The position numbers and the translations under genes were made by a program. Source: Capsaspora owczarzaki ATCC 30864 (Eukaryota > Opisthokonta > Filasterea). Taken from it: a stretch of 64,000 nt of DNA. Below the pieces are notes generated by a model that saw only the letters and a list, made by a program, of their open reading frames with translations, did not search any database and was not told the origin of the DNA. Positions 4,522-59,836 of this stretch are shown piece after piece; within the stretch, counting starts at the first letter, position 1; each line of letters starts with the position of its first letter. The stretch is taken from assembly GCF_000151315.2 (NCBI RefSeq), contig NW_011887304.1, forward strand, positions 393,872 to 457,871, given 5' to 3'.

Positions 4522-7500
4522 CTACTTTTTGGATGCGCGGGTTCGCGTGCGGCCGGCGATCGGCGACAAGAGACGCTCAATCGGAGCGGCAGCAACGGTG
4601 GCGTGCAGACGCATGTTGCTGGGCGAGTCCGCCATGCCGGAGGTGCCATTGAGCAGCTTGGAGGTTGTGGCAGGACGCGCCATCAGCTTGCGAGTGCCAG
4701 CCTTGGTTGGCTTTGCCGCAACATCCGTCTTGGCAGCAGCAGCAGCAGCACCAGCGGCAGTTTGTGCGGCCTCTTCAGCCACTTCCATTGCAGCCTGGTA
4801 GTTGCGCGTCGCAAACACCTTCTTCATGATTGGCGAGTTGCGCAATGCCGCGTACACTCGACCTGAGGCAGACCCTGGATTGCCGGGAGACGAGGGAACA
4901 GCAGCCTCGGGCAGCTTGAGCGACCGCTGCGTTGGCTTTCGACCAACAAGACCGGGGGTTTCTGCAGGCGATGCAGTTGCCGACGCGGACTGCTGCAAGG
5001 GCGACAAGGGCGATCGAACGTTGAGCGCGCTGGCAGCTGCAGATTTGGACGTCTTGTCCATGGCGCAATAGTACGAATTGTTGCGCTGCGAGCTGCGCGA
5101 TGCCGAGCCAGGCTCGTCGTCCAAGTTGCCCATGTCACTGATGCGACGCGGCGGAGACTTTTCTGCGGCCTCAATGATGGCATCAGCAACGACAGGAGTG
5201 TCTCCACCCGAGGTCGAAGCTGCAGAAGAAGCCGGTGCCACACTGCTGCGTCGCTTCTTTCGGCCACCTTCAACAGGCGTCACACCAGCCGAAGGAGCTT
5301 GTTCGTCAGCTCCACCTGTCTCGCCAGACCTGCGTTTCGCGGAGGTTCGCTTGGGTGCAGCAGCCACAGAAGAAGTATCAGCAACAGCAGCAGCAGAAGC
5401 AGCGGCCGCCTTCCCACGGCGCTTTGAAGCAGCAGCAGCAGCCATCGCATTCGCTGCGGCCGCTTCAGCAGCGGTCAGCGGCACTGTGTTTTTGGCAATC
5501 TGCTCGCGCTCGAGTTCTCGGAGCGAGGCATCAGCAAGGTGCTCCAGCTCATCCACAGCAGCGCGTGCGGAAGAAAAGTCGCTGGGTCGCACCGCCTTGA
5601 ATGGGCTGGCAGTTGTGGTTGTTGTTGTTGCTGCTGCTGCTGCTGGGGCACTGCTGGATGCAGCATTGTGTTCTTGCAACTGAGCACGCAGCAGAGTCAC
5701 TTCCTCGGCAAGGGAAGCCAGCTGGGCCTCGATCGCACGAGCAACAGCGTCGGTCACTTGCTGTGAAACACCGTTGAGGGTAATGTGCACCACGGCGGAA
5801 GCAGCTGTTGACTTGAACTTTTGGAGCTCGGCATCCATCGCTTGCTGCTCCTGAGCCATGGTTTGCAGCTCCTGAATGGCCTGTTCCAAGTCTGAAACCA
5901 TGCTTTTCGCTTTGGCCTCTGCAGCCGCGGCTCTGGTCTCGGCAGCGGTTGTCTTGGACCCGGCTTGAGCCTGTGCTTGCAGGGCCTCGGCGCGCGCCGC
6001 TGCAAGCTCTGCAGTCAAGGCCTCGACTTCGGCCACTCGGGCAGTCAGCTCGGCCGAAAGCTTGGCTTTCAGGGACAACAGCTCCTCGGACTCGTCGGCC
6101 TTCTCGCGCAGCGCATCCATCGTTTCTTCAGCGCTGCGCAGCTTGGCAGACAAGCGGTGGTTTGTATCGGCGTGGCCCTGGACGGACTCTTGCAGCTCTT
6201 GGATTTTGACTTGCTGCGACTCGAGGGTGCAGCGCAGCGTGGCAAGCGACATGCGACGGCCCTCGTCATCCACAATATCCAGCAGCTCGGCCGAGGAAGC
6301 GGCGGGCAACACCTGGGCTGCAGGCTGCTGGGACTCGGCTTGACTCGAGGAGCTCGCGAGCGACTTGCGGCCTACCGCGTTGGGCACGAGTGACAAGCGG
6401 CCCAGCGACGGACGAGAGCCATCGATATCCACAATGGACAGTCGAGTCTGACGGCGAACGAGCTGCGAACGACGCTCTTCGATGATGCGCGTGTAAATGG
6501 CGACAGTGTCGTCCAGCCTGTCGTTCATGCGGTCGTTTTCCTCGGTGAGAATGGCCTTGAGCGACTCTTCCCATTCAGCCTGCTGCTCCATCATTTCCTG
6601 GGCCACCTCGGCGCGCAGCTGTGCCTCCATGGCAATGAATCGCTCGTCTGCCTCTCGCTTTTCGCGAAGCAAGTCCTGAATGAAGCCGCGCAGACGCTCG
6701 ACCTCAGCCGCATCGCTGGCCGACGCCTCGACAAGCCGCTTGACGGCCTTATCGTCCACCAATGAGGTCAAGCCCGTGTCAATCTTTGGCAGAATGTTCT
6801 TGAACGTGGTGACCTCTTGCGCGGTCGCCGAAAACCCAAGCACATGGGACGTTTCGTCGCAGTCCGACACGCTGGGGTTGATGTTGACAATCATTCCCAC
6901 ATGGCAGGAGACCGAGTTCTCAGCCAAAAAGTTGTGAAGAATGTGGGTCAGCTTGCTCTCGCGGTACGGGACGCGCATCAGAGTGACACGCGGTGGCGGA
7001 TTGATCTTTGAAGCGGCCAGCATGCGCTGCTGGTTGATCTGCAGTGCTCGCAAGACCATGCCGAGATTCATGAGCGACGAGTTGATGGAGCATGCCTCGT
7101 TGAAACGATCACCCGTGTTTTTGGTCTTGCCAGATCGCTCCGATCCTGCCAGGTCGAAGAAGGCCATGCTGGACGCAAACGCATTCGTCAGGTCGTCCTC
7201 GCTCAGGGAGCGCACAATCTTGATGGAAAAGATGCAGTGGCTCCGACTCGAAGCGCTGTTCAACAGAGTGGAGGCCACCTGGCGAGCTCGTTGGCCAGAG
7301 CGCAACACACGGTAGGCCTCTTCGACCGAAAAGACACGGATTTCGCGCACATTCTTCATGTAGACATTCTGCTGCGCGTCGCTTCCGAGCTTGAGACTGG
7401 GCCGAGCCTTGCCTTGGACTGGAGCCTGCAGAAGGTCGTACAAGTTTTCATTGTACACCTCGACGTAGCTCACCCAGACAGAGTACCTGTAGCGGTAGTC

Positions 7501-8910
7501 GGTCTTGAAGGCGCGCTTTTCCTGGCCTGTGGCGCGAGCTTTGCTCTCAGCATCAGCGACAATGTGCGAAGCGCTCTTCTCGTCCATAAAGCGGCCGCTG
7601 AGGACGTGGTGACGAAACTCGTTCTCTTGGGCCTCTGCCTCGGGGCTGAGCAGCTGCACGTCGTTGAAGCACTTTGGCTTGAGGCGGGAGTTCCTCAGCT
7701 GACGGCCTGCAACGCCATTAAAGACATACTCGACAGATCGCGGCAACACACCCTCGGCATTCGGCGCGCCTTGCATGGTGTATGTTTTGCCAGCGTTCGT
7801 CACGCCGTAGCAGAGGAGGACGCAGTTGTGGCCCTGCTCGACGTCTTGGAGCAGAGGCAGCGTTGTCTTGTCAAAGGTGGCCCGCTGGTCCGTCTCTGGT
7901 CCCATCACGGCCGTGAACTTGTATTGCTGCTCTTTGGTCAGTGTGTGCGCGTTTGCCGGCGGGTGCAAGATGACTGAGGATTTGTTGACAATCTCCACGC
8001 AGCTGCCTCCAGACGAAAGCTCCACGGCGGTGAGCGGTCGAACGCGAAGATAGACGTGGATGGGCTCGCGCAGCGATCCAGCTTCGTCGTCCGCGTTGTT
8101 GTTGTTGTTGTTGTTGCCCTGGATCATGGTTGAATCGAGACTGTCGTCGGCGACAGCAGACTCGTCGCTTTGGTCGAGCGAGGAGTCGTCGTTGATGCCT
8201 GACACGTCCATTTCCATCGTCATGATGGGCTCTGGCTGCTTGGAGAGGTGGGCGTCTGAGGCGACAGCAGCGGCTGGCTTGGCAAACCTCGTCGCAGTCA
8301 CTGTGCCAGGCTCCTCATCCTCGTTATCGTCGTCATCAGACGCACTGTCGTCCTCCATGTCTTCTTGATGTGTGAGGGCTGCGACGCGTGGGTCGACCTG
8401 GGAGGTGGCCATGATTGTGTCGTTCAAATCCCGCGAGCCGAGCACGCTCAGTGCCGACGGACCGCCCACCATCGGCGTCTGGAAGAGCTTGCGCTGAGCT
8501 CGATAGAACGCAGCAGCTGGGTCCTTGGCTCTCGACTTCTCGTCCTGGTCGTCCTCGTCGTCGTCGTCGTCGTCGGAAGCGTCGTCCTCACTGTCGGAGC
8601 GGTCTCCGTCGCGGCCTCCGGGCAAGACCGTCCCGTCGTTCGCATCGTCCTCGTATGTATCCATCATTGCATATGCAGGTGCAGCAGCAGCAGCAGCAGC
8701 AGCGGGAACAGCAGCAACGGGAACAGCAGGCTGAGCGGACTTGCCCGTTTGAATTTTTTGAATCGCGCCGTTACTGTTTCGCAATGCATTTTCAGCGTTT
8801 GCGTCGCGCAGCCCTCCCGCAGCACCAGCACCAGCACCAGCACCAGCAGTGGACGTGGCAGTGGTTGTGGCAGCTGGCTTGACGGGCAGAGGCGCCTGGA
8901 AGCGTGTCAT
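4522..8910 (-). CDS. KIF20: Kinesin-6 family motor (KIF20/MKLP2-like)
   Basis: A single 1462-codon frame runs from ATG at 8910 to TAG at 4522. An acidic, Ala/Asn-rich N-terminal extension (~280 aa) precedes the motor domain (~285-740). Motor motifs are present: P-loop GVTNAGKTYT (~369), switch I LNSASSRSH, switch II DLAGSERS, and YRESKLTHIL. The GVTNxGKT P-loop, the ~95-residue insertion between motor strands before YSVWVSYVEVYNENLYDLL, and the NPxxxxxDETxHVxxFSA block are marks of kinesin-6. Downstream is a neck coiled coil (EEWEESL-like region), long coiled coils (~780-1090) and a basic, Ala/Ser-rich tail. Family members organise the central spindle and recruit cytokinesis factors; an MKLP2 rather than MKLP1 role is inferred from the large motor insertion. 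There are no introns, in contrast to most neighbours. Confidence 0.92.
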   Translation of the reverse strand: MTRFQAPLPVKPAATTTATSTAGAGAGAGAAGGLRDANAENALRNSNGAIQKIQTGKSAQPAVPVAAVPAAAAAAAAPAYAMMDTYEDDANDGTVLPGGRDGDRSDSEDDASDDDDDDEDDQDEKSRAKDPAAAFYRAQRKLFQTPMVGGPSALSVLGSRDLNDTIMATSQVDPRVAALTHQEDMEDDSASDDDDNEDEEPGTVTATRFAKPAAAVASDAHLSKQPEPIMTMEMDVSGINDDSSLDQSDESAVADDSLDSTMIQGNNNNNNNADDEAGSLREPIHVYLRVRPLTAVELSSGGSCVEIVNKSSVILHPPANAHTLTKEQQYKFTAVMGPETDQRATFDKTTLPLLQDVEQGHNCVLLCYGVTNAGKTYTMQGAPNAEGVLPRSVEYVFNGVAGRQLRNSRLKPKCFNDVQLLSPEAEAQENEFRHHVLSGRFMDEKSASHIVADAESKARATGQEKRAFKTDYRYRYSVWVSYVEVYNENLYDLLQAPVQGKARPSLKLGSDAQQNVYMKNVREIRVFSVEEAYRVLRSGQRARQVASTLLNSASSRSHCIFSIKIVRSLSEDDLTNAFASSMAFFDLAGSERSGKTKNTGDRFNEACSINSSLMNLGMVLRALQINQQRMLAASKINPPPRVTLMRVPYRESKLTHILHNFLAENSVSCHVGMIVNINPSVSDCDETSHVLGFSATAQEVTTFKNILPKIDTGLTSLVDDKAVKRLVEASASDAAEVERLRGFIQDLLREKREADERFIAMEAQLRAEVAQEMMEQQAEWEESLKAILTEENDRMNDRLDDTVAIYTRIIEERRSQLVRRQTRLSIVDIDGSRPSLGRLSLVPNAVGRKSLASSSSQAESQQPAAQVLPAASSAELLDIVDDEGRRMSLATLRCTLESQQVKIQELQESVQGHADTNHRLSAKLRSAEETMDALREKADESEELLSLKAKLSAELTARVAEVEALTAELAAARAEALQAQAQAGSKTTAAETRAAAAEAKAKSMVSDLEQAIQELQTMAQEQQAMDAELQKFKSTAASAVVHITLNGVSQQVTDAVARAIEAQLASLAEEVTLLRAQLQEHNAASSSAPAAAAATTTTTTASPFKAVRPSDFSSARAAVDELEHLADASLRELEREQIAKNTVPLTAAEAAAANAMAAAAASKRRGKAAAASAAAVADTSSVAAAPKRTSAKRRSGETGGADEQAPSAGVTPVEGGRKKRRSSVAPASSAASTSGGDTPVVADAIIEAAEKSPPRRISDMGNLDDEPGSASRSSQRNNSYYCAMDKTSKSAAASALNVRSPLSPLQQSASATASPAETPGLVGRKPTQRSLKLPEAAVPSSPGNPGSASGRVYAALRNSPIMKKVFATRNYQAAMEVAEEAAQTAAGAAAAAAKTDVAAKPTKAGTRKLMARPATTSKLLNGTSGMADSPSNMRLHATVAAAPIERLLSPIAGRTRTRASKK

Positions 8911-14779: not shown

Positions 14780-16208
14780 TCACCGCACCATAGGAATTGG
14801 ATCAGTCTCAATGGAGAACGACAGAGTCAGCTCGGTCGGAACAACCACTGGAAGTGACGAAAGAAACTTGCGGGTGTCCTCATCAGAGTAAGTGAAGCGT
14901 GTGTCGATCTTGTATCCGACAGCTGTGCCTTCAGTCTGGCGACGATACAGTTTGCTCGGAAGCTGACCGATAGCCCTTTCCCGCTCAGGCGAGTCCGTGG
15001 CGGGACCCACATCAGCGCAGGAGCAACAATTCACCTTGATGTGGATTGCACCTGTTTTGACGCGATACACAGCCTGTGCCACGGTCCAGACAAGCAGAGC
15101 GGCGCGAGCACCTTGCTGGAGAGCCTTCAGTACCTTTGCCGGAGCACACGAGGCCTTGATCTCATGAATCGTGCAGCTAAACGCGACATCGTTGCTTTTC
15201 GTCCATTCGGTGATCATGTCGATTTCGACGGTTGTGCTTGGACTAGTCCAAAAGTTTGCCTGTGGTCAGAGCACGGCAAGACCTATGTGAGCAAACTCCT
15301 CAAACTCGAACACTTTCCAGGCGAGCGGCGTTACCTTTGCTTCTTCTTTGAGAGTCTTAGCAATGAGGAGAGCCACTGACGACTCGTAGTCGCCCGGAAA
15401 CTGCTTTGAACCCAGGTTGACAAGCGTCGTGGTTTTCGTTGGCTCGAACCACACGTTGCCGTTTTGAACTTCTCGTTCAAAAAGCTGCTGGATTAGCTTG
15501 ATCTGAGTTGCATTCGGCCATAGTGAGCAAAACGCATGGGTCAGAAGCAAGAGAGCGCTTAGAAACGGAGAAACTTACCAAGCAGTCATTCTTGCATCCG
15601 ACTCCAGTCACACGCGGCTTCAGATCTTTCGCGAGCAGTTTGAGGTCTGCCAGAGTTCGTAACTCGACGTTGTTGAGGTTCTGAGGGTACTTGCTTTGCC
15701 AGTGTTTCTCTGCCTGAGCACCCCGCACGTCGGAGGTCATCATATCGCGAAGTTTGTTGATGTCCCTGTCAACAAGCGCCGCATGCGCTGCAGGAACCGC
15801 AGTCGTCGCAACACCAGGAGCTAGGTCATCAACCCGCGCGGGCTGGATTGGCGTGAGGGTCGAGGTCGCGGAAGTCAAAGCTGCTTGAGGCCGCCGAGGC
15901 GAACGATGGGAAGGAGGGGTTGGTGGCGGTGACGGCATTGGCGAGCTGACCGCCGCGGCCGCCGAAGCCACCGCTGAAACGGGGACACGCGGCGAGGCTG
16001 GAGGATAGACTTCAGGCCCATACCAAAGCGGACGAGAGCCGGTCTCGCGGCGAACAATTTGCCCAGCCTTTTCAAGGGCGTACAGTGTTGGGTTGATATC
16101 CTTTTGTGTGACTAATTTGGCTTGCTTTGCCACAGCCAAAGCATCGACACCAGAGTTTTTCAGAACAAAGTCGAGCGCAGTCTGCTCGAGAGGCGGAGGA
16201 GTCTTCAT
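14780..16208 (-). CDS. Protein with N-terminal Z-alpha-like winged helix
   Basis: Three phase-0 exons (16208-15579, 15502-15335, 15259-14780) encode ~425 aa. Residues ~7-63 look like a Z-alpha (Z-DNA/Z-RNA binding) domain: LEQTALDFVLKN, a short helix, then QKDINPTLYALEKAG and a wing ending SRPLWY. Against ADAR1 Z-alpha the core Lys (K36), Asn (N39), Tyr (Y43), second wing Pro (P60) and Trp (W62) are kept. The Arg after Asn is Pro, and the first wing Pro is Arg. A Pro/Ser/Ala-rich linker (~65-150) leads to a ~270-residue globular C-terminal region I do not recognise, with a CxCxD-like stretch near VNCCSCADVG. The start at 16208 is preferred because the domain begins at once and the upstream in-frame sequence is non-coding in character. 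Nucleic-acid sensing is an inference. Confidence 0.7.
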
Positions 16209-16532: not shown

Positions 16533-18923
16533 TCATGCGGCCTTCTGGTGTGCGAGCATGCAGTGCAAAAACTCGCCCAGAGCCGACTCGACAAAGGATG
16601 AGCCAAACGGCGGCAGGTGCGATTCGCTGAAACCAATGTGCCCGCCAGTGGGCGTAAGGCATAGCAGGGCGTTGGGGTTTGCCTCAAACGCGGCAAACGG
16701 GATGCCTGGAGGGACGTAGGTAAGGAGGGAAGGACGGAAGAAGAGAAACGGTCAACAACAAGACGGTGAGTCAAACTCAAGTGAAAGGCTGCCAACCAAC
16801 AACACATCACAAAAACAACCAAACCTTGAACAGGAGAGAAGGGATCATCTGCAGCGTTGATGCACAAAAGCGGGATTTGCACTTTGGGCAGGTGATTGAC
16901 CGAGCTGGCCTGCGAATAGTATTCTTGCAGCGAAGCGAAGCCAAACATCGGCACGACGACCGTTTGATCAAAGTCACGAATAGTCCGGCACTATTTTCGA
17001 AACGAGACGAGTGAGCGAGATCAGGTTGCACAGCGCATTTCAAGCTATAGCAAATTTACCTTCTCGACATCCTCAATGGTAAACCATTTTTCGGGGGCAG
17101 CGTCAAACAAGTGTCGGTGGCTGGAACAAACGGGCACAATCAGACACATGACCCAAAAATACAGGCATTCACACAAGAGCAGCAGCGCTAAAAACTCACC
17201 GGAAGATGAGATTTTTGAGGTTTTTTGCCAATCGCTGGTTGTACAGATAAAGGCTTGGGAAGGACTCGAGTGACTTGGTGGATCCAATGATATCCCAGGG
17301 GTTTGACACGGCGACAGCAGCTTGGAGGGCGGTGGAGGTTCCTGTTCAAAGCGAAAGCATTTTTAGTGAAGAAACAAGAGTTCCGCCAGATTTTGATGAT
17401 GGAGCAAAACTGACCTCGCTCGGCCAAGTACTAGTTCACATCACGCGAAAAAAGTTCAAGATGATTTCAAGTGAGCAAAAGAGGGCTTGAAGCCAAAGTG
17501 ACAATTGAATCGGCGGTGTTACCTTGATCAAAATCATCGACCCGAGCGAAACACCAACAGCAAACAGGGGTGCTTTCGGGTGCTTTGCATGAACATGTTG
17601 GACCACCTCGGCAATGTCATCCGTGAACGTTGCCGAAAATCCGCGAGGAGTCTGGGTAAGTGAGAAGATGGTGAGTCGAGAACACAAAGACCAAGAACGA
17701 AAAAAGCAGGAGACGTACAATAGCCACAGAGTTGCCACAGCCTCGATTGTTAAACACGACAGTTCTGCGCGACGACAAAAGAAATTCAATGGCGGGGTGA
17801 GACAAAGACGTTGGTTTGTGACGATCGCATTTGGCTGAAAGGCAAACAAGCCCAAACCTACCGCCATTTGTTGCGTTCGGCTTCGAGCACAATGTGCTTG
17901 ACGTAATTTTCGTTGGAGCCGCCCGTCAAACCATGCAGCACGACAACCAGCGGCGTCGACTCCTCCATGTCCGGGATGTCGTGCCAGTCCAAAGCGACTT
18001 GTCCGCCATCGCTCATGCCAACGAGCTCTCTGTTCAAAGATCAATCAGTGAGTTGAAGCAAGTGCACTGAGCAGAAAAAAAAAGTGTGACAGTTTCCGGC
18101 CTGATCTGAGCAGAAGGTGACGAAGCGGTTTCAAGTTTCGCTTTTTGAGCCCCTTTTTCCATCGCTGAACGCTGAAAGCTGAGTCTCATTGTTTGGATTT
18201 TGTTTGCTCGATTTCTGAGCGCGCGCGTTCATTTTCTCAGGGTGATTCAGCTTTTTGGCAGGTGGTGTGCCAGATGTCCATCGCTCGGCTCAGAATGTCA
18301 AAACCACGTGCGGAAACCAATAAAGGCGAAAACCGCTGCTATTCACAAAACCCCTGGACTCATCGCTTTTGGCGGGCAAAGCAAAAAAGGCAGGCGTGAA
18401 ACAGAGCACACAACAGTGGAGAAGCAAGCGGAGAACGCGGGTGGAGTGGAAGAGCTCGGGTTTGGGTTTGGGCGGAAGCGGAGGAGAGGGAGTGACGCGG
18501 CAATCCACCTCCCTCCATCCAGAACGGAGACTTTTGCGACTGACTCGGATCCCTCCACATCATCCAAACACTGCGATGGAATCGTATCGTATTGTGGAAA
18601 ATCCCGCCGCCGCAACGAGGGAGAGGAGCGACAGTGAAGGAGCGGAAACGAACGAACCGCTCATAGGCCACGTCGGGATTGGTTCGCAGTATGACGCCAA
18701 AGACGGTCTGCGCGTGGCCGTTCAGCGCCCACCACGTTGGCAGAAACTGGCGCGAGAGTGTCTTCATGTTGTTGCGGAGCGTGCGGGCGAGCCGCGACTC
18801 GGGATGGTGGTGCAGCGTCGGCGGCGTGCGGTGGGTCGCAATTCGCGCCATCAGCAGCGCAGTGGCAACGATGGCCGTGCCAGACGCCAGCACAACCCAT
18901 CCAAAGTCAGCAAGCATGGACAT
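16533..18923 (-). CDS. ABHD3: Alpha/beta hydrolase of the ABHD1/ABHD3/YheT family
   Basis: Nine exons: 18923-18658, 18029-17862, 17764-17719, 17651-17523, 17430-17415, 17341-17200, 17120-17060, 16990-16825, 16705-16533. The product is ~388 aa. An N-terminal membrane anchor (~8-30, GWVVLASGTAIVATALLMA) is followed by PTWWALNGHAQTVFG, ELVGMSDGGQVALDW, VLHGLTGGSNENYV, VVFNNRGCGNS, the nucleophile elbow GVSLGSM, NAADDPFSP with the acid, and TPTGGHIGF with the catalytic His. These are the ordered motifs of the ABHD1/3 and yeast Eht1/Yju3-like group of lipid esterases and phospholipases. Exon 5 is a 16-nt microexon needed to join SMILIK to YLAERG in frame. The substrate cannot be read from sequence; the membrane anchor suggests ER or lipid-droplet lipids. 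Confidence 0.88.
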
Positions 18924-28879: not shown

Positions 28880-31800
28880 GCAGCAGCAGCAACGAAGCTC
28901 AGACGAGGCGGCCGCGGAATGGCAGCCCGCGCTGCTGCTCTTTGGCAACCTCGACCAAGCTGGCATGCTTGAATGGGACGACGATCAGGTAAAAAAAAAA
29001 AAAAAAAAAAAAAATCAAACAGCAAACAAAATTGGAGATCTCGCTGAAAATCTGAGCCGCTGATTTCGATTGTGTTGTCGGCTATTCTTTGGTCATGCTC
29101 GAGAGTTTTGACATCTTGACGCGAAAGATCGACGCGCAATGAACAAGCACCAAAACGCGAAAGCCTTCTCACTTTTCTGAATGTTTTCGTACATATCTTG
29201 AACGTTGAAATAGGAGCTTGCACGAGAACTCGAACAAGTATCAACACATTTGCTCGAGGAACTCGGCGCCGGATTTATCTTGCAAGCATTGAAAACAGGT
29301 CCCGAATCTCGCGCCGAGCGTGCAGAGCGGATTGACACGGAACGAGCGCTGGCTGCCGTGGGCCATTCACGCAAGCATCACCGCGGTGCAAAGCGCCCGC
29401 GAGTAGTCTACACGCCAGACATGCTGCCAACGCTCTTCCCGAGCTTTTCCAAGTCGGACGTGCCGCACTTTTCCGACTTGTTCGCGCCGCAAAAGTTCAA
29501 AATCCGACCGTCGCGCGCCTTTGTCCGCTCGGCCGAACAGGAAGCAGAGCTTGGCGACGGCAGCGATGACGATGACGACGACTTGTCCAGCGCCTTGCGC
29601 TCGACCGAGGAGGTTGCTGCCTTGTCTGCTGCTGCGGGTGCTGACGGACAGGTGCCCGCTCCTCTCGACAGCACGATGACAGAGCAACTGCCACCACGCA
29701 AGCGTCCTCTCTTGGAGGAAGACTGGGACGATGAAGCTCGGCTCTTCAATAGCCCCGTCATTCTTCCCACCATGATTCGGCATGGTCGGAATGCTCGCGA
29801 CACGGTGATGGTCAGTCTTGCGTGCCGCCCCCGAATCCCCTGTCTTTCTTTGTGTGTTATTGTCCAAACTAACGTCATTTTTTTGTTCTATCTTTTGTGT
29901 GTGTGCGTTTTTACAGGCCCAAGCCATCGATGCTGAAGACATTGGTCATCCTCTCGTTGCCATCAACCCGCAAGCTCAACCGCCAAAGCAGCAGCAATCA
30001 CAGCAACAACCACCTCAGCCACTGCCACAGCTGGTACCGGAACAACTGGACTCTGACCAATCAGACGCCGCCAAACAAACCCCTGCCATGGTGGAGGCCG
30101 CCCTGCAGTCTCTCAAAGAGCCAGACCAGCGAGCCTACAACCTTTCCTCGCAAATTGTGTGGGAAGAGCACGTCATTACGGACACGGATCGGTACAGCGA
30201 TGCCAAAGTCGTGTTTGAACCGACCGACCCTGCAATGCCGCTCTATCGCTCCAAGCCTTCCGGCGGCTATGTCGATTTGACGCCCGTCTCCAACTTGCGG
30301 CAGTTCCACTCGGCGTCGGTGACCGGATTTCTCAACCCGTACGAGCCTCTGCCAAAGTACTCCATTCTGCGCACACTCCATCAGCATGCCAAGGATGTGG
30401 CCGCCAAATTGGACGCCAAGCGCCAGGCTGACGAGCATTTGCTGACAGGAAAAGGTCTTGCGCCCATTGTGCAGGACGTGACGGGCGAAACCGCGCAGGC
30501 TCGCGCTTTTCTCGCCGCCGCACTCGCCGCCACTCCGACAACCCAGAAAGGTCGTGCAGCATCCCAGCGAAGGGCACACGCCGTTGCTCATCTCGAGCGC
30601 TTCAACGCTGCCGACACCCAGCAGTCCGCGGGAGGAGCCGACACCATCGACATCAAGGAGCCGACCGTCTACTCCATGTTTCCACTCAGCAACATGGAGC
30701 TGGCTGCACCAGAGTGGGAGGACGAGATCATTTACGACGAGACGGACGCGCCCAAGCGGCTGCCAAACACGTCGTTCATTTGGGACAAGTCGGATGGCAA
30801 CCTGCTCTACGGCTCAACGGCACCCAAAACGCTCAAATTCGTCAAGTCTGCCGAGGAGATTGCCGCCGAAACGCGCCGGAGGACCAAGAAAATGTCTTGG
30901 AGGGCTCGGCAGCGCGAAAAGGAGCGCATCCAGCGTGAAAAGGCCGCAGCCATGGACGCCAAGCAGATTGCCGCCATGCAGGGCTCGGATCGATTCAATC
31001 TCTCGGGCGACCAGTGGTATCGTGCTTCGAGCGGTCTAACAGCAGATCTCTTCCGCTCGTCCACATTCACGACGCCGCTGCGGCACTCGCTGCCCGCCCT
31101 CAAGCTTCTCGAAATCTTCTTCCACACCTCCTTCACCCAGGCGTCTCTGCGCTGTGCTCATCGACCAGTGCTCAAGACCCTGCCGCCAGTGGACGGAAAC
31201 GAAGGGGGTCGGTCTTGCACGCTCGCTTCCCTCGGTCGCTTCATCAAAAAGAAGGAGCACGAGCGCTTGCAAGAGCGCCAAAAGTCGGGTGGTGATGTGT
31301 TTTTCATGAAAACCCAGCGTGACCTGTCCGGCCGCGACGGCGACATTGTTCTACTCGAGTACTGCGAAGAGTTTCCGCCGTTGGTGTCGAACGTCGGCAT
31401 GGTATCGCGCTTGTACAACTTGTACCGTCGCACCGAGCCTCAAGACGACAATGCCCCCGAGCTGCCGTTCGGCATGACGCGCTTCCAAGGAGCGGCAGAC
31501 TCGTCGCCCTTCCTGGGTCAACTCAAGCCGGGCTCGGCGTTGCAGTACGTGGACAACACCCTCTACCTGGCACCTGCCTATCCGCACGAGATTGCCCCGA
31601 CGGATTTCCTCGTCATTCGCGTCAAGGACCACCATTACATTCGTCCGATTGACGGCCTCTTTGTGCTCGGCCAAACACTCCCCAAAATCGAAGTCCCCGC
31701 GCCCAATTCCAAGAAGGCGAGTGACTTTATGCGCAACCGCGTGCAAGCCTTCATCTACCGCCAGCTCAAGCAGTCCAAGCTGAGCATCAAGAAGAACGAC

Positions 31801-34336
31801 AAGTCTCGCCGGCCATTCGTCAAGCTCGGCGATTTGATTGCGGCATTCCCGAGCATTCCCGTGGCGATGCTGCGCAAGCGTCTCAAGATTCTGTGCGAGT
31901 GCGTGCGCAGTGGGCTGGGCGACCAAAGCGAGGAGTGGGAGCTCCGCACCAACCAGCGCATCCCGCCCGAGGAGGAGCTGCGCCAGCTGGTCACACCCGA
32001 ACAAGCCTGCGCGCACGAAAGCATGCTGGCCAGTCAACAGATGCTGCGCGATTCCGGTTTTGGCGCTGACGATTTAATCCTCGAGCCACCGTCCCTGACC
32101 CCGGACGGCGATGAAGAGGACCAGGACCAGCGAATCCAGACCGAGCTCAAGCTTGCGCCGTGGAACACAACGCACACCTTCTTGGACGCGCAGCAGGGCA
32201 AGTGCCATCTCAAGCTCACTGGGCCCGGCGATCCGACTGGCGCTGGCGAGGGCTTTTCGTACATCCGAGCCCCCAGCAAGCCCATCGTTCACAATCGCGA
32301 GCGTGAAGCTGCCAAGCCAAAGCAAAAGAAGGAGCCGCACAAGACGGTGGAAGGCACCGAGTCCGACTTGCGCAAAATCCCGTTGGTCGAGGCGCGCAAC
32401 ATGCTGCAGCAAAAGTTTGGCATTTCTCTCTCGCAAACGTCCAAGATGCCGCGTTGGGATGTCATTGCGCTTCTTCGCAAAATGTCCTCGAGTCAAGGCG
32501 AAGGGGCCGCCGATGCGACAGATCTGTCCAAGTGGGCTCGCGGCGAGCGGCGATCTGTGCAAGAGCACCAGCAGCTGTACAAGCAAGAGTGCCAGCGATT
32601 GTTCGACTTGCAGAATCGCATTCTAGCGTCTTCGGAAGAGCTGGAATCGGAAACCGAATCGGTCGGAGACGGTGATGGCGATGAAGGCGGCGACGATTTC
32701 GATGATTTGGCCGACTTTGGAAAAGAGCTGGAAAGCGCTGCGCGCTCGAGCCATACCGAAGCCTCGGCCCTCAGGTCGATGGAGGCACGCAGTAACGAAA
32801 TTGCAGAGTATCTTCAGCTGCACAAACTGCTCAAGCGATCACAGCAGGCCGCGGCTGGCGGCGATGAGGAGCAAGACGGTCAGGCGGACATGGATACTGG
32901 AGCTGATGGAGATGCGCAGGCGGAGGAAGCAACCGACATGCAGACCGAGTCCGCGGGTGCGGACGGAGCCGCTTCGACGTCTTCTTCTTCCTCTGCAGCG
33001 CCGCCTGCTTCTGCTGCCTCGGTTCCCAACCAACAGCCAGGTGAAAAGTACCGCGGCAAGCACCTCGTCATCAAGCGCAAGTTTGCCATGCCGGACGGGT
33101 CCGTGGCCGAACGCCAGGAGGTGGTGACTGATCCGCGCGTCATTGAAGCCTACCTGATTGTTCGCAACCAAGAATTGGCGGGAGTGAGCGAGGGTCGGCG
33201 CCGAAAGCTTCTCAGCCACGTTCAGCGACGACTTGCCGCTTCCCAGTCTGGCGACAACAACTCGCTGGGCGCTTCCCGCGTCCCGACAGGACGAACCAAT
33301 CGATGCGGCATGTGCGGCTCCTACGAGCACACCAAGTCCAACCGCGCCTGCCCCGAGCATCCAGAGCACCTCACCTTCCAACGCAGTCGGGCCAATGCTG
33401 CTGCTCGCAAGCGCGCTGCTCAGACGGGTGTGAACACGGATGACATTGCGCGGCGCTTTGCGCAGAGCGAGTTGGCGCGCGAGCGAGACCAATCTGCGTC
33501 TCAAGTCGTTTTTGGTGAAAACGGTCTCAAGATGAAGATCAAGTTTGGTGCAAGCGGTGCAGCGACACCTACAGCCGCCAGCGGTCGACGCCCACCCAGT
33601 TCCGGTGGACGCCGCGGAGGTCGTGGCGGTTCGTCTGCTCGCAAGTCGCCCAAGAGCCGCCGTGTTCGCTTCCGTGGAGATTACGACGATGATGATGAGG
33701 ACGATGACGATGACAATGTTGGTAACAGCGACGAGGACGAGGACGAGCAGAACGACTTCCGAGACGAGGAATACGATGCCTTTCGGTCGGTCGCGAGCAA
33801 ACGCCGCGGCGCTGTCACTGCCACTTCCCAGCTCAATAAGGTTTTGATGGAAGTGTGCCAAGATCTTTGGAATCATCAGTCTGTAAGTCGTGCGGGTTGC
33901 GTGGAGTTGGGCTGGCTGCAGAACGCGGGTGACTGACCCGCTTTTTGATTTTTCTTTTGTTGCAATGTAGAGCACGTACTTCCGCAGTCCGGTGGACGTA
34001 CATCAGTATCCCGATTACCTGCAGCATGTCCACAATCCGATGGACCTGACCACCATGCGCGCCAAGGCCAAGGGCAACAATTATCAGCGACCCGCGGAAT
34101 TCTTGGAAGATTTGGCGCTGCTTGTCATCAACTCCTCGGCCTACAACGGCCACGCTGCTGAAGTCACCACTGCGGCCTTCAATCTCATGCAGCAAGGAGT
34201 GAAGCAATTGCGGAGCCGCTCGCAGGGCTTGATGGAAGCCACCGCTGCACTCGGTATTGATACGGGCGAGTTCCTCAAAGCGGCAATTCAACGGACTCAG
34301 GCCGTGTACAATGAGCATTGCACCGCGTCTGGTTAG
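28497..34336 (+). CDS. TAF1: TFIID subunit 1 (TAF1)
   Basis: Four phase-0 exons (28497-28988, 29214-29810, 29917-33882, 33971-34336) encode ~1806 aa. The N-terminus has two polyQ tracts, an acidic run and the TAND-like LLFGNLDQAGMLEWDDD. A conserved core (~600-1200) carries NMELAAPEWEDEIIYDE, SGGDVFFMKTQRDLSGRDGD, GFSYIRAP and KWARGERRSVQEHQQLYKQECQRLFDLQNRIL, matching the TAF1 DUF3591 block almost motif for motif. A zinc knuckle (RCGMCGSYEHTKSNRACP, ~1491-1510) and an acidic stretch precede a C-terminal bromodomain (exon 4: YLQHVHNPMDLTTMRAKAK, SSAYNGHA). Animal TAF1 has two bromodomains; only one is seen here. Role: scaffold of TFIID at core promoters. Exon 1 ends at a donor followed by a ~23-base A-run. 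Confidence 0.95.
28568..28890 (+). repeat. CAG/CAA trinucleotide tracts in TAF1 exon 1
   Basis: Two tracts (about 28568-28617 and 28830-28890) of interspersed CAG and CAA codons encode polyglutamine, with a GAC/GAT-rich acidic tract (28725-28780) between them. CAA interruptions should limit slippage. They lie in frame within TAF1. Confidence 0.9.
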
Positions 34337-59763: not shown

Positions 59764-59836
59764 GGGCTTGTAGCTCATTTGGTAGAGCGCATCGTTAGCA
59801 TCGATGAGGTCAGCGGTTCGACTCCGTTCAAGTCCA
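59764..59836 (+). tRNA. tRNA-Ala (anticodon AGC)
   Basis: A 73-nt cloverleaf: acceptor stem GGGCTTG with CAAGTCC and discriminator A; D arm GCTC/GAGC; anticodon stem CATCG/CGATG with loop TTAGCAT giving anticodon AGC at 59797-59799; T arm AGCGG/CCGTT around TTCGACT. The acceptor has G3:U70, the main alanine identity pair. No intron is present. The internal A and B boxes are intact and a T8 run (59837-59844) provides a pol III terminator. The CCA is not encoded beyond its normal absence in eukaryotes. Confidence 0.97.

Follow-up and report, generated by a model that had tools for sequence, protein, structure and literature searches.

The 64 000-nucleotide stretch of Capsaspora owczarzaki ATCC 30864 analysed here (the window; positions 393872–457871 of contig 13 in an assembly of 27.5 Mb and 29 contigs) contains, on its minus strand, a three-exon gene for a protein of 425 residues, CAOG_07059. 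Among single-celled organisms, Capsaspora is one of those closest to animals. CAOG_07059 combines an N-terminal Z-alpha domain, a Pro/Ala/Ser-rich linker and an orphan C-terminal region, and is probably a reader of Z-form nucleic acid tethered to a diverged effector. A Z-alpha domain in Capsaspora, classified as a filasterean in a figure legend of PMC9989829, was already reported by Herbert (2024; PMC11293857) in a statement repeated in PMC11937930. The novelty therefore lies in the architecture, of which, as of the name CAOG_07059, no report was found in the open-licence literature, taken without supplements.

The Z-alpha domain

16020..16190, minus strand: Z-alpha domain, residues 7–63, with K36, N39, Y43, R59-P60 and W62 (PF02295, 33.3 bits; ADAR1 chains by phmmer)

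The original prediction assigned this segment to Z-alpha, and the Pfam profiles agree. A scan of residues 1–70 matched PF02295 over residues 10–62 with 33.3 bits (E 5e-8) and a scan of the whole protein matched it over residues 12–62 with 29.1 bits (E 1e-6), both above the curated cut-off of 21. No other family, winged-helix or not, was matched at E ≤ 1 in either scan, within the limit of HMMER filters that remove most matches with E above about 0.1; with no competitor, the assignment passes the comparison of profiles. Among sequences of solved structures (phmmer, PDB), a full-length ADAR1 chain ranks first (E 4.5e-6, to which two stretches contribute 12.4 and 14.3 bits), followed by 1xmk (0.002), the Z-beta domain of ADAR1, seven ADAR1 Z-alpha chains (0.0044–0.11) and two chains of PKZ, the interferon-inducible eIF-2 kinase (0.028 and 0.041). 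The lowest-ranked ADAR1-type chain has an E value of 0.74; three ribosomal L7/L12 sequences at 0.43–0.46 were taken as chance matches.

In the alignment to ADAR1 (5zu1), K36, N39, Y43, P60 and W62 correspond to K170, N173, Y177, P193 and W195 in ADAR1 numbering; the five-residue contact set claimed earlier for this protein is thus present. It includes the Asn, Tyr and Trp core of the Z-form contact (N39, Y43 and W62). The accessory contacts are divided between the kept K36 and P60 and the changed Q35, P40 and R59. Two of these changes had been pointed out before and are both seen, with P40 at the place of the Arg after N173 and R59 at that of the first wing Pro; the third, Q35 where the Lys pair has its first Lys, had been missed. 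Residue Y43 is retained, whereas the printed Z-beta alignment shows Ile at this position. The residues N39-L42-Y43-L45-W62 fit Herbert's NLYW motif, N-x2-L-Y-x-[LM]-x(8,20)-W (PMC11293857, section 4).

A single-sequence structure model of the full-length protein places helices at residues 7–17, 22–29 and 35–47 and strands at residues 52–56 and 59–63 (pLDDT 42–68 in blocks of ten), which supports a predicted winged helix. Agreement with the overlay expected on ADAR1 Z-alpha is weak: the anticipated helices and strands are there, at the low pLDDT just given, and with Foldseek the Z-alpha domain of PKZ (4lb5_B) appears at rank 36 (E 1.6, TM 0.57 by target) and ADAR1 does not appear among the best 50 of 216 matches. 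The search with this model does not point to Z-alpha specifically among winged helices.

A profile search of the genome, conducted in six frames and exon by exon, so that it could overlook a domain interrupted by an intron, returned a single Z-alpha match even at E ≤ 10.

Proposed recognition of Z-form nucleic acid

In the mechanism that we favour, the N-terminal winged helix would use its N39/Y43/W62 core to bind double-stranded RNA or DNA in the left-handed form; its wing is modified by R59 and its recognition helix by Q35 and P40. The flexible linker of 76 residues would keep the C-terminal region close to the bound nucleic acid, where this region would act. Such a layout of reader, linker and effector is that of ADAR1, ZBP1, PKZ and E3, each of which has a different effector. 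The sequence itself shows the domain, its core residues, the linker and an intact gene; by analogy with these proteins, we infer Z-form binding by CAOG_07059, an effector role for its tail and what chemistry the tail may have.

Several observations weigh against this reading. The sequence of 1xmk equals or exceeds the isolated Z-alpha chains in score, and Z-beta of ADAR1 is classically not a Z-DNA binder; the title of PMC13136903 terms it G-quadruplex-specific. The changes at R59, P40 and Q35 may lower binding. In the Foldseek results (best 50 of 216 matches), the winged helices of BlaI (rank 6) and DsrD (ranks 14 and 23) stand above PKZ Z-alpha. Protein searches at E ≤ 10 returned only CAOG_07059 itself, both for residues 1–70 (15 scored candidates) and for the whole protein (7992 scored candidates, those sharing most words). 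Since these searches demand shared five-residue words and similar length, distant Z-alpha relatives are missed, and even ADAR1 and ZBP1 were not returned; with no relatives found, nothing points to selection on Z-alpha or on the tail.

The strongest rival, to which we give about one chance in four, is that the domain, Z-beta-like or an ordinary winged helix derived from Z-alpha, has lost Z-form recognition and contacts protein or other nucleic acid instead. The slight lead of 1xmk, the three changed contact positions and the ranks of BlaI and DsrD are all in keeping with it, and weaker or changed binding is a real rival because positions in both the wing and the helix are altered. It is opposed by the retention of N39, Y43, W62, P60 and K36, with Tyr where Z-beta has Ile, and by ZBP1.2, which according to passages in PMC11293857 lacks the wing prolines, keeps the conserved Z-alpha residues and still interacts with Z-form nucleic acid.

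Gene structure and identity

16208–14780, minus strand: whole gene, three exons, 425 residues (ATG at 16208, stop at 14780–14782)
15579..16208, minus strand: exon 1, residues 1–210 (donor site and frame; spliced protein identical to CAOG_07059)
15503..15578, minus strand: intron 1, 76 bases, phase 0, GTAAGT...CAG (splice sites; identity to CAOG_07059)
15335..15502, minus strand: exon 2, residues 211–266 (splice sites; identity to CAOG_07059)
15260..15334, minus strand: intron 2, 75 bases, phase 0, GTAACG...CAG, with one in-frame TGA (splice sites; identity to CAOG_07059)
14780..15259, minus strand: exon 3, residues 267–425 and stop (frame; identity to CAOG_07059)

The coordinates given earlier are exact: the ATG, the stop codon and two phase-0 GT-AG introns give a spliced product that matches the hypothetical protein CAOG_07059 of C. 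owczarzaki ATCC 30864 with 100% identity over 100% of its length in a search of ∼5.8 billion proteins. The entry carries a precomputed PF02295 match, and its UniRef name reads, incompletely, 'Z-binding domain-cont'.

Linker and C-terminal region

15780..16007, minus strand: Pro/Ala/Ser-rich linker, residues 68–143 (composition; pLDDT under 50)
15023..15388, minus strand: orphan alpha-beta region, residues 249–345, spanning intron 2 (low-confidence full-length model)
15155..15229, minus strand: candidate PD-(D/E)xK motif, residues 277–301, VEID-x17-HEIK (D280-x18-E299-x-K301; from sequence)

A Pro-rich linker following Z-alpha was correctly anticipated: of the 76 residues at 68–143, 17 are Pro, 17 are Ala and 10 are Ser, and the model has neither helix nor strand from residue 68 to residue 133. 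The C-terminal region consists of 281 residues (145–425), close to the ∼270 given before, and its description as a large tail without family placement holds. It has no significant family match; a protein search with residues 145–425 at E ≤ 10, bound like those above to shared five-residue words and similar length, returned only the protein itself (1900 scored candidates), a search of its own genome for paralogues at E ≤ 10 gave three matches, all to its own exons, and viral contigs gave three pattern matches with no relative among them. Matches in 12 mycobacteriophages to residues 309–379 or 322–379 (tblastn against phage records, E 0.4–5) were taken as chance; the best of them, the one of the 12 that was inspected, is to a small uncharacterised gene between minor tail protein genes.

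Residues 249–345 are predicted to form a helix, two strands, a helix and a strand. A second model, of the read-through sequence, has the same elements plus helices in the intron-derived insert. Confidence is low in both models, with a mean pLDDT of 42 and of 39.

A SAP domain at residues ∼180–216, attractive by eye, was considered and rejected, as it has no profile match. CAOG_07059 is not among the 16 SAP matches in the genome at E ≤ 10, and Pfam does not list SAP for the 45-residue piece. A profile built from eight of these 16 matches scored −4.6, at residues 293–302, a value equalled or bettered by 325 of 1000 shuffles (396 of which yielded a score at all); on the segment 176–230 alone it scored −1.0, over one position.

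A candidate nuclease motif

The best single guess for the tail, and a doubtful one at roughly one in five, is a domain of the PD-(D/E)xK type that acts on nucleic acid and has diverged strongly. A protein of this kind would cut nucleic acid marked by Z-alpha, an alternative that we consider unlikely, to about the same degree. The signature itself, D280-x18-E299-x-K301, is a lead only. In the low-confidence model, VEID and HEIK fall in two neighbouring predicted strands with helices on both sides; ahead of the strands lies a helix with E250, and after them come a helix bearing Q314-Q315 and one more strand. A tight pattern and a looser one, both picked post hoc, occurred in 0.105% and 2.995%, respectively, of 20000 shuffles of residues 145–425; among the 115 frames in the window that run for 150 residues or more from stop to stop, the tight pattern is confined to CAOG_07059 (1/115) and the looser one is found in three, CAOG_07059 and two others.

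The searches speak against a nuclease. No nuclease profile in Pfam, NCBIfam or PADLOC matches the tail at E ≤ 10, again within the limit of filters that remove most matches above about 0.1, and fold searches with both models returned nothing at E ≤ 0.001. Nuclease-like fold matches (CinA-CinB and Avs3) came with the second model and are all insignificant; no such rows are among the fold matches listed for the first.

A more specific proposal, which we regard as improbable, is a pre-animal effector in which Z-alpha would guide a PD-(D/E)xK nuclease to left-handed RNA or DNA in defence or genome surveillance. A layout of Z-alpha and nuclease is not described in the open-licence literature searched, again without supplements. 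If true, it would tie Z-form sensing in the Capsaspora lineage to destruction and not to editing or cell death. Whatever its chemistry, the function of the tail would reveal the use to which Z-form recognition is put in this lineage.

Relationship to ADAR and other Z-alpha proteins

The likeness of CAOG_07059 to ADAR1 consists of the best sequence matches to solved structures, the Asn/Tyr/Trp core and the helix–wing spacing. It differs in having one Z-alpha domain, Q35, P40 and R59 at contact positions, and no match to a deaminase or dsRNA-binding domain (A_deamin and dsrm are both absent in the Pfam scans). In several of ZBP1, PKZ, E3, ORF112 and I73R, Z-alpha is joined to a separate functional part, a layout that CAOG_07059 would share; the tail of CAOG_07059, unlike those of ZBP1, PKZ and the viral Z-alpha proteins, is an orphan. 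The Z-alpha of PKZ is matched by sequence and, weakly, by fold, but CAOG_07059 has no kinase match in Pfam at E ≤ 1. From ZBP1 it differs in its single Z-alpha stretch and in the lack, at the same threshold, of a RHIM match.

Profile searches of the genome located dsrm in three matches, on contigs 2, 3 and 8, Z-alpha on contig 13 and A_deamin on contig 14, the last as two pieces of one frame. This frame of 602 residues (positions 847–2655 of the extracted locus) is the sole A_deamin gene that these searches turned up. Taken without any upstream exons, it has A_deamin as its single Pfam match at E ≤ 1, with no Z-alpha or dsrm; among solved structures ADAR2 chains match it best, and the gene is probably ADAT1. 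By sequence, CAOG_07059 is not part of an ADAR.

The published statements on this point differ. Passages in PMC11942513 and PMC11451048 trace ADAR1, or a protein ancestral to it, to Capsaspora, whereas the abstract of PMC4323055 reports the absence of ADAR from filastereans. The notion that CAOG_07059 is a Capsaspora forerunner of ADAR1, with Z-alpha and an editing enzyme reduced beyond recognition, draws on the first two sources and is highly improbable, given the third, the lack of A_deamin and dsrm in the protein and the distribution of A_deamin, dsrm and Z-alpha over separate contigs. A sole A_deamin gene with neither a Z-alpha nor a dsRNA-binding match conflicts with the ADAR1 ancestor placed in Capsaspora by PMC11451048 and PMC11942513, and with printed claims of such an ancestor editing dsRNA there. 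A canonical Z-alpha without a deaminase in a relative of animals would mean that recognition of the Z-form need not go together with RNA editing, which bears on the order of events.

The view that Z-alpha is limited to ADAR1, ZBP1, PKZ and a few viral proteins, held in the original prediction, is outdated in the light of PMC11293857 and PMC11298590. The latter predicts Z-alpha, as found here, outside animals, in other non-metazoan eukaryotes and in many giant viruses, with two cases experimentally validated and with various partner domains on the non-metazoan candidates; the word 'Capsaspora' is absent from its main text. Herbert (PMC11293857) deals with the same species and, in its abstract and sections 4 and 7, leaves the Capsaspora gene and its partner domain unnamed, with 'CAOG' and 'nuclease' each occurring 0 times in the main text. 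Because the genome yields one Z-alpha, the domain reported there is very probably that of CAOG_07059.

Genomic neighbourhood

Nine neighbouring or long frames in the window were scanned against Pfam; three were matched, none of them to mobile or viral families, and six were unmatched.

4525–8910, minus strand: kinesin motor protein, single long frame of 1462 residues (Pfam)
17439–18044, minus strand: alpha/beta hydrolase piece (Hydrolase_4, 23.4 bits for the frame alone, under the family cut-off of 27)
29818–33933, plus strand: long frame with DUF3591 (PF12157, E 1.1e-117)
59764–59836, plus strand: tRNA-Ala (AGC)

The hydrolase piece shares the strand of the Z-alpha gene and lies upstream of it. 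DUF3591 is a domain of TAF1, a large transcription factor subunit. ARAGORN and Rfam agree on the tRNA-Ala, of which the window has one.
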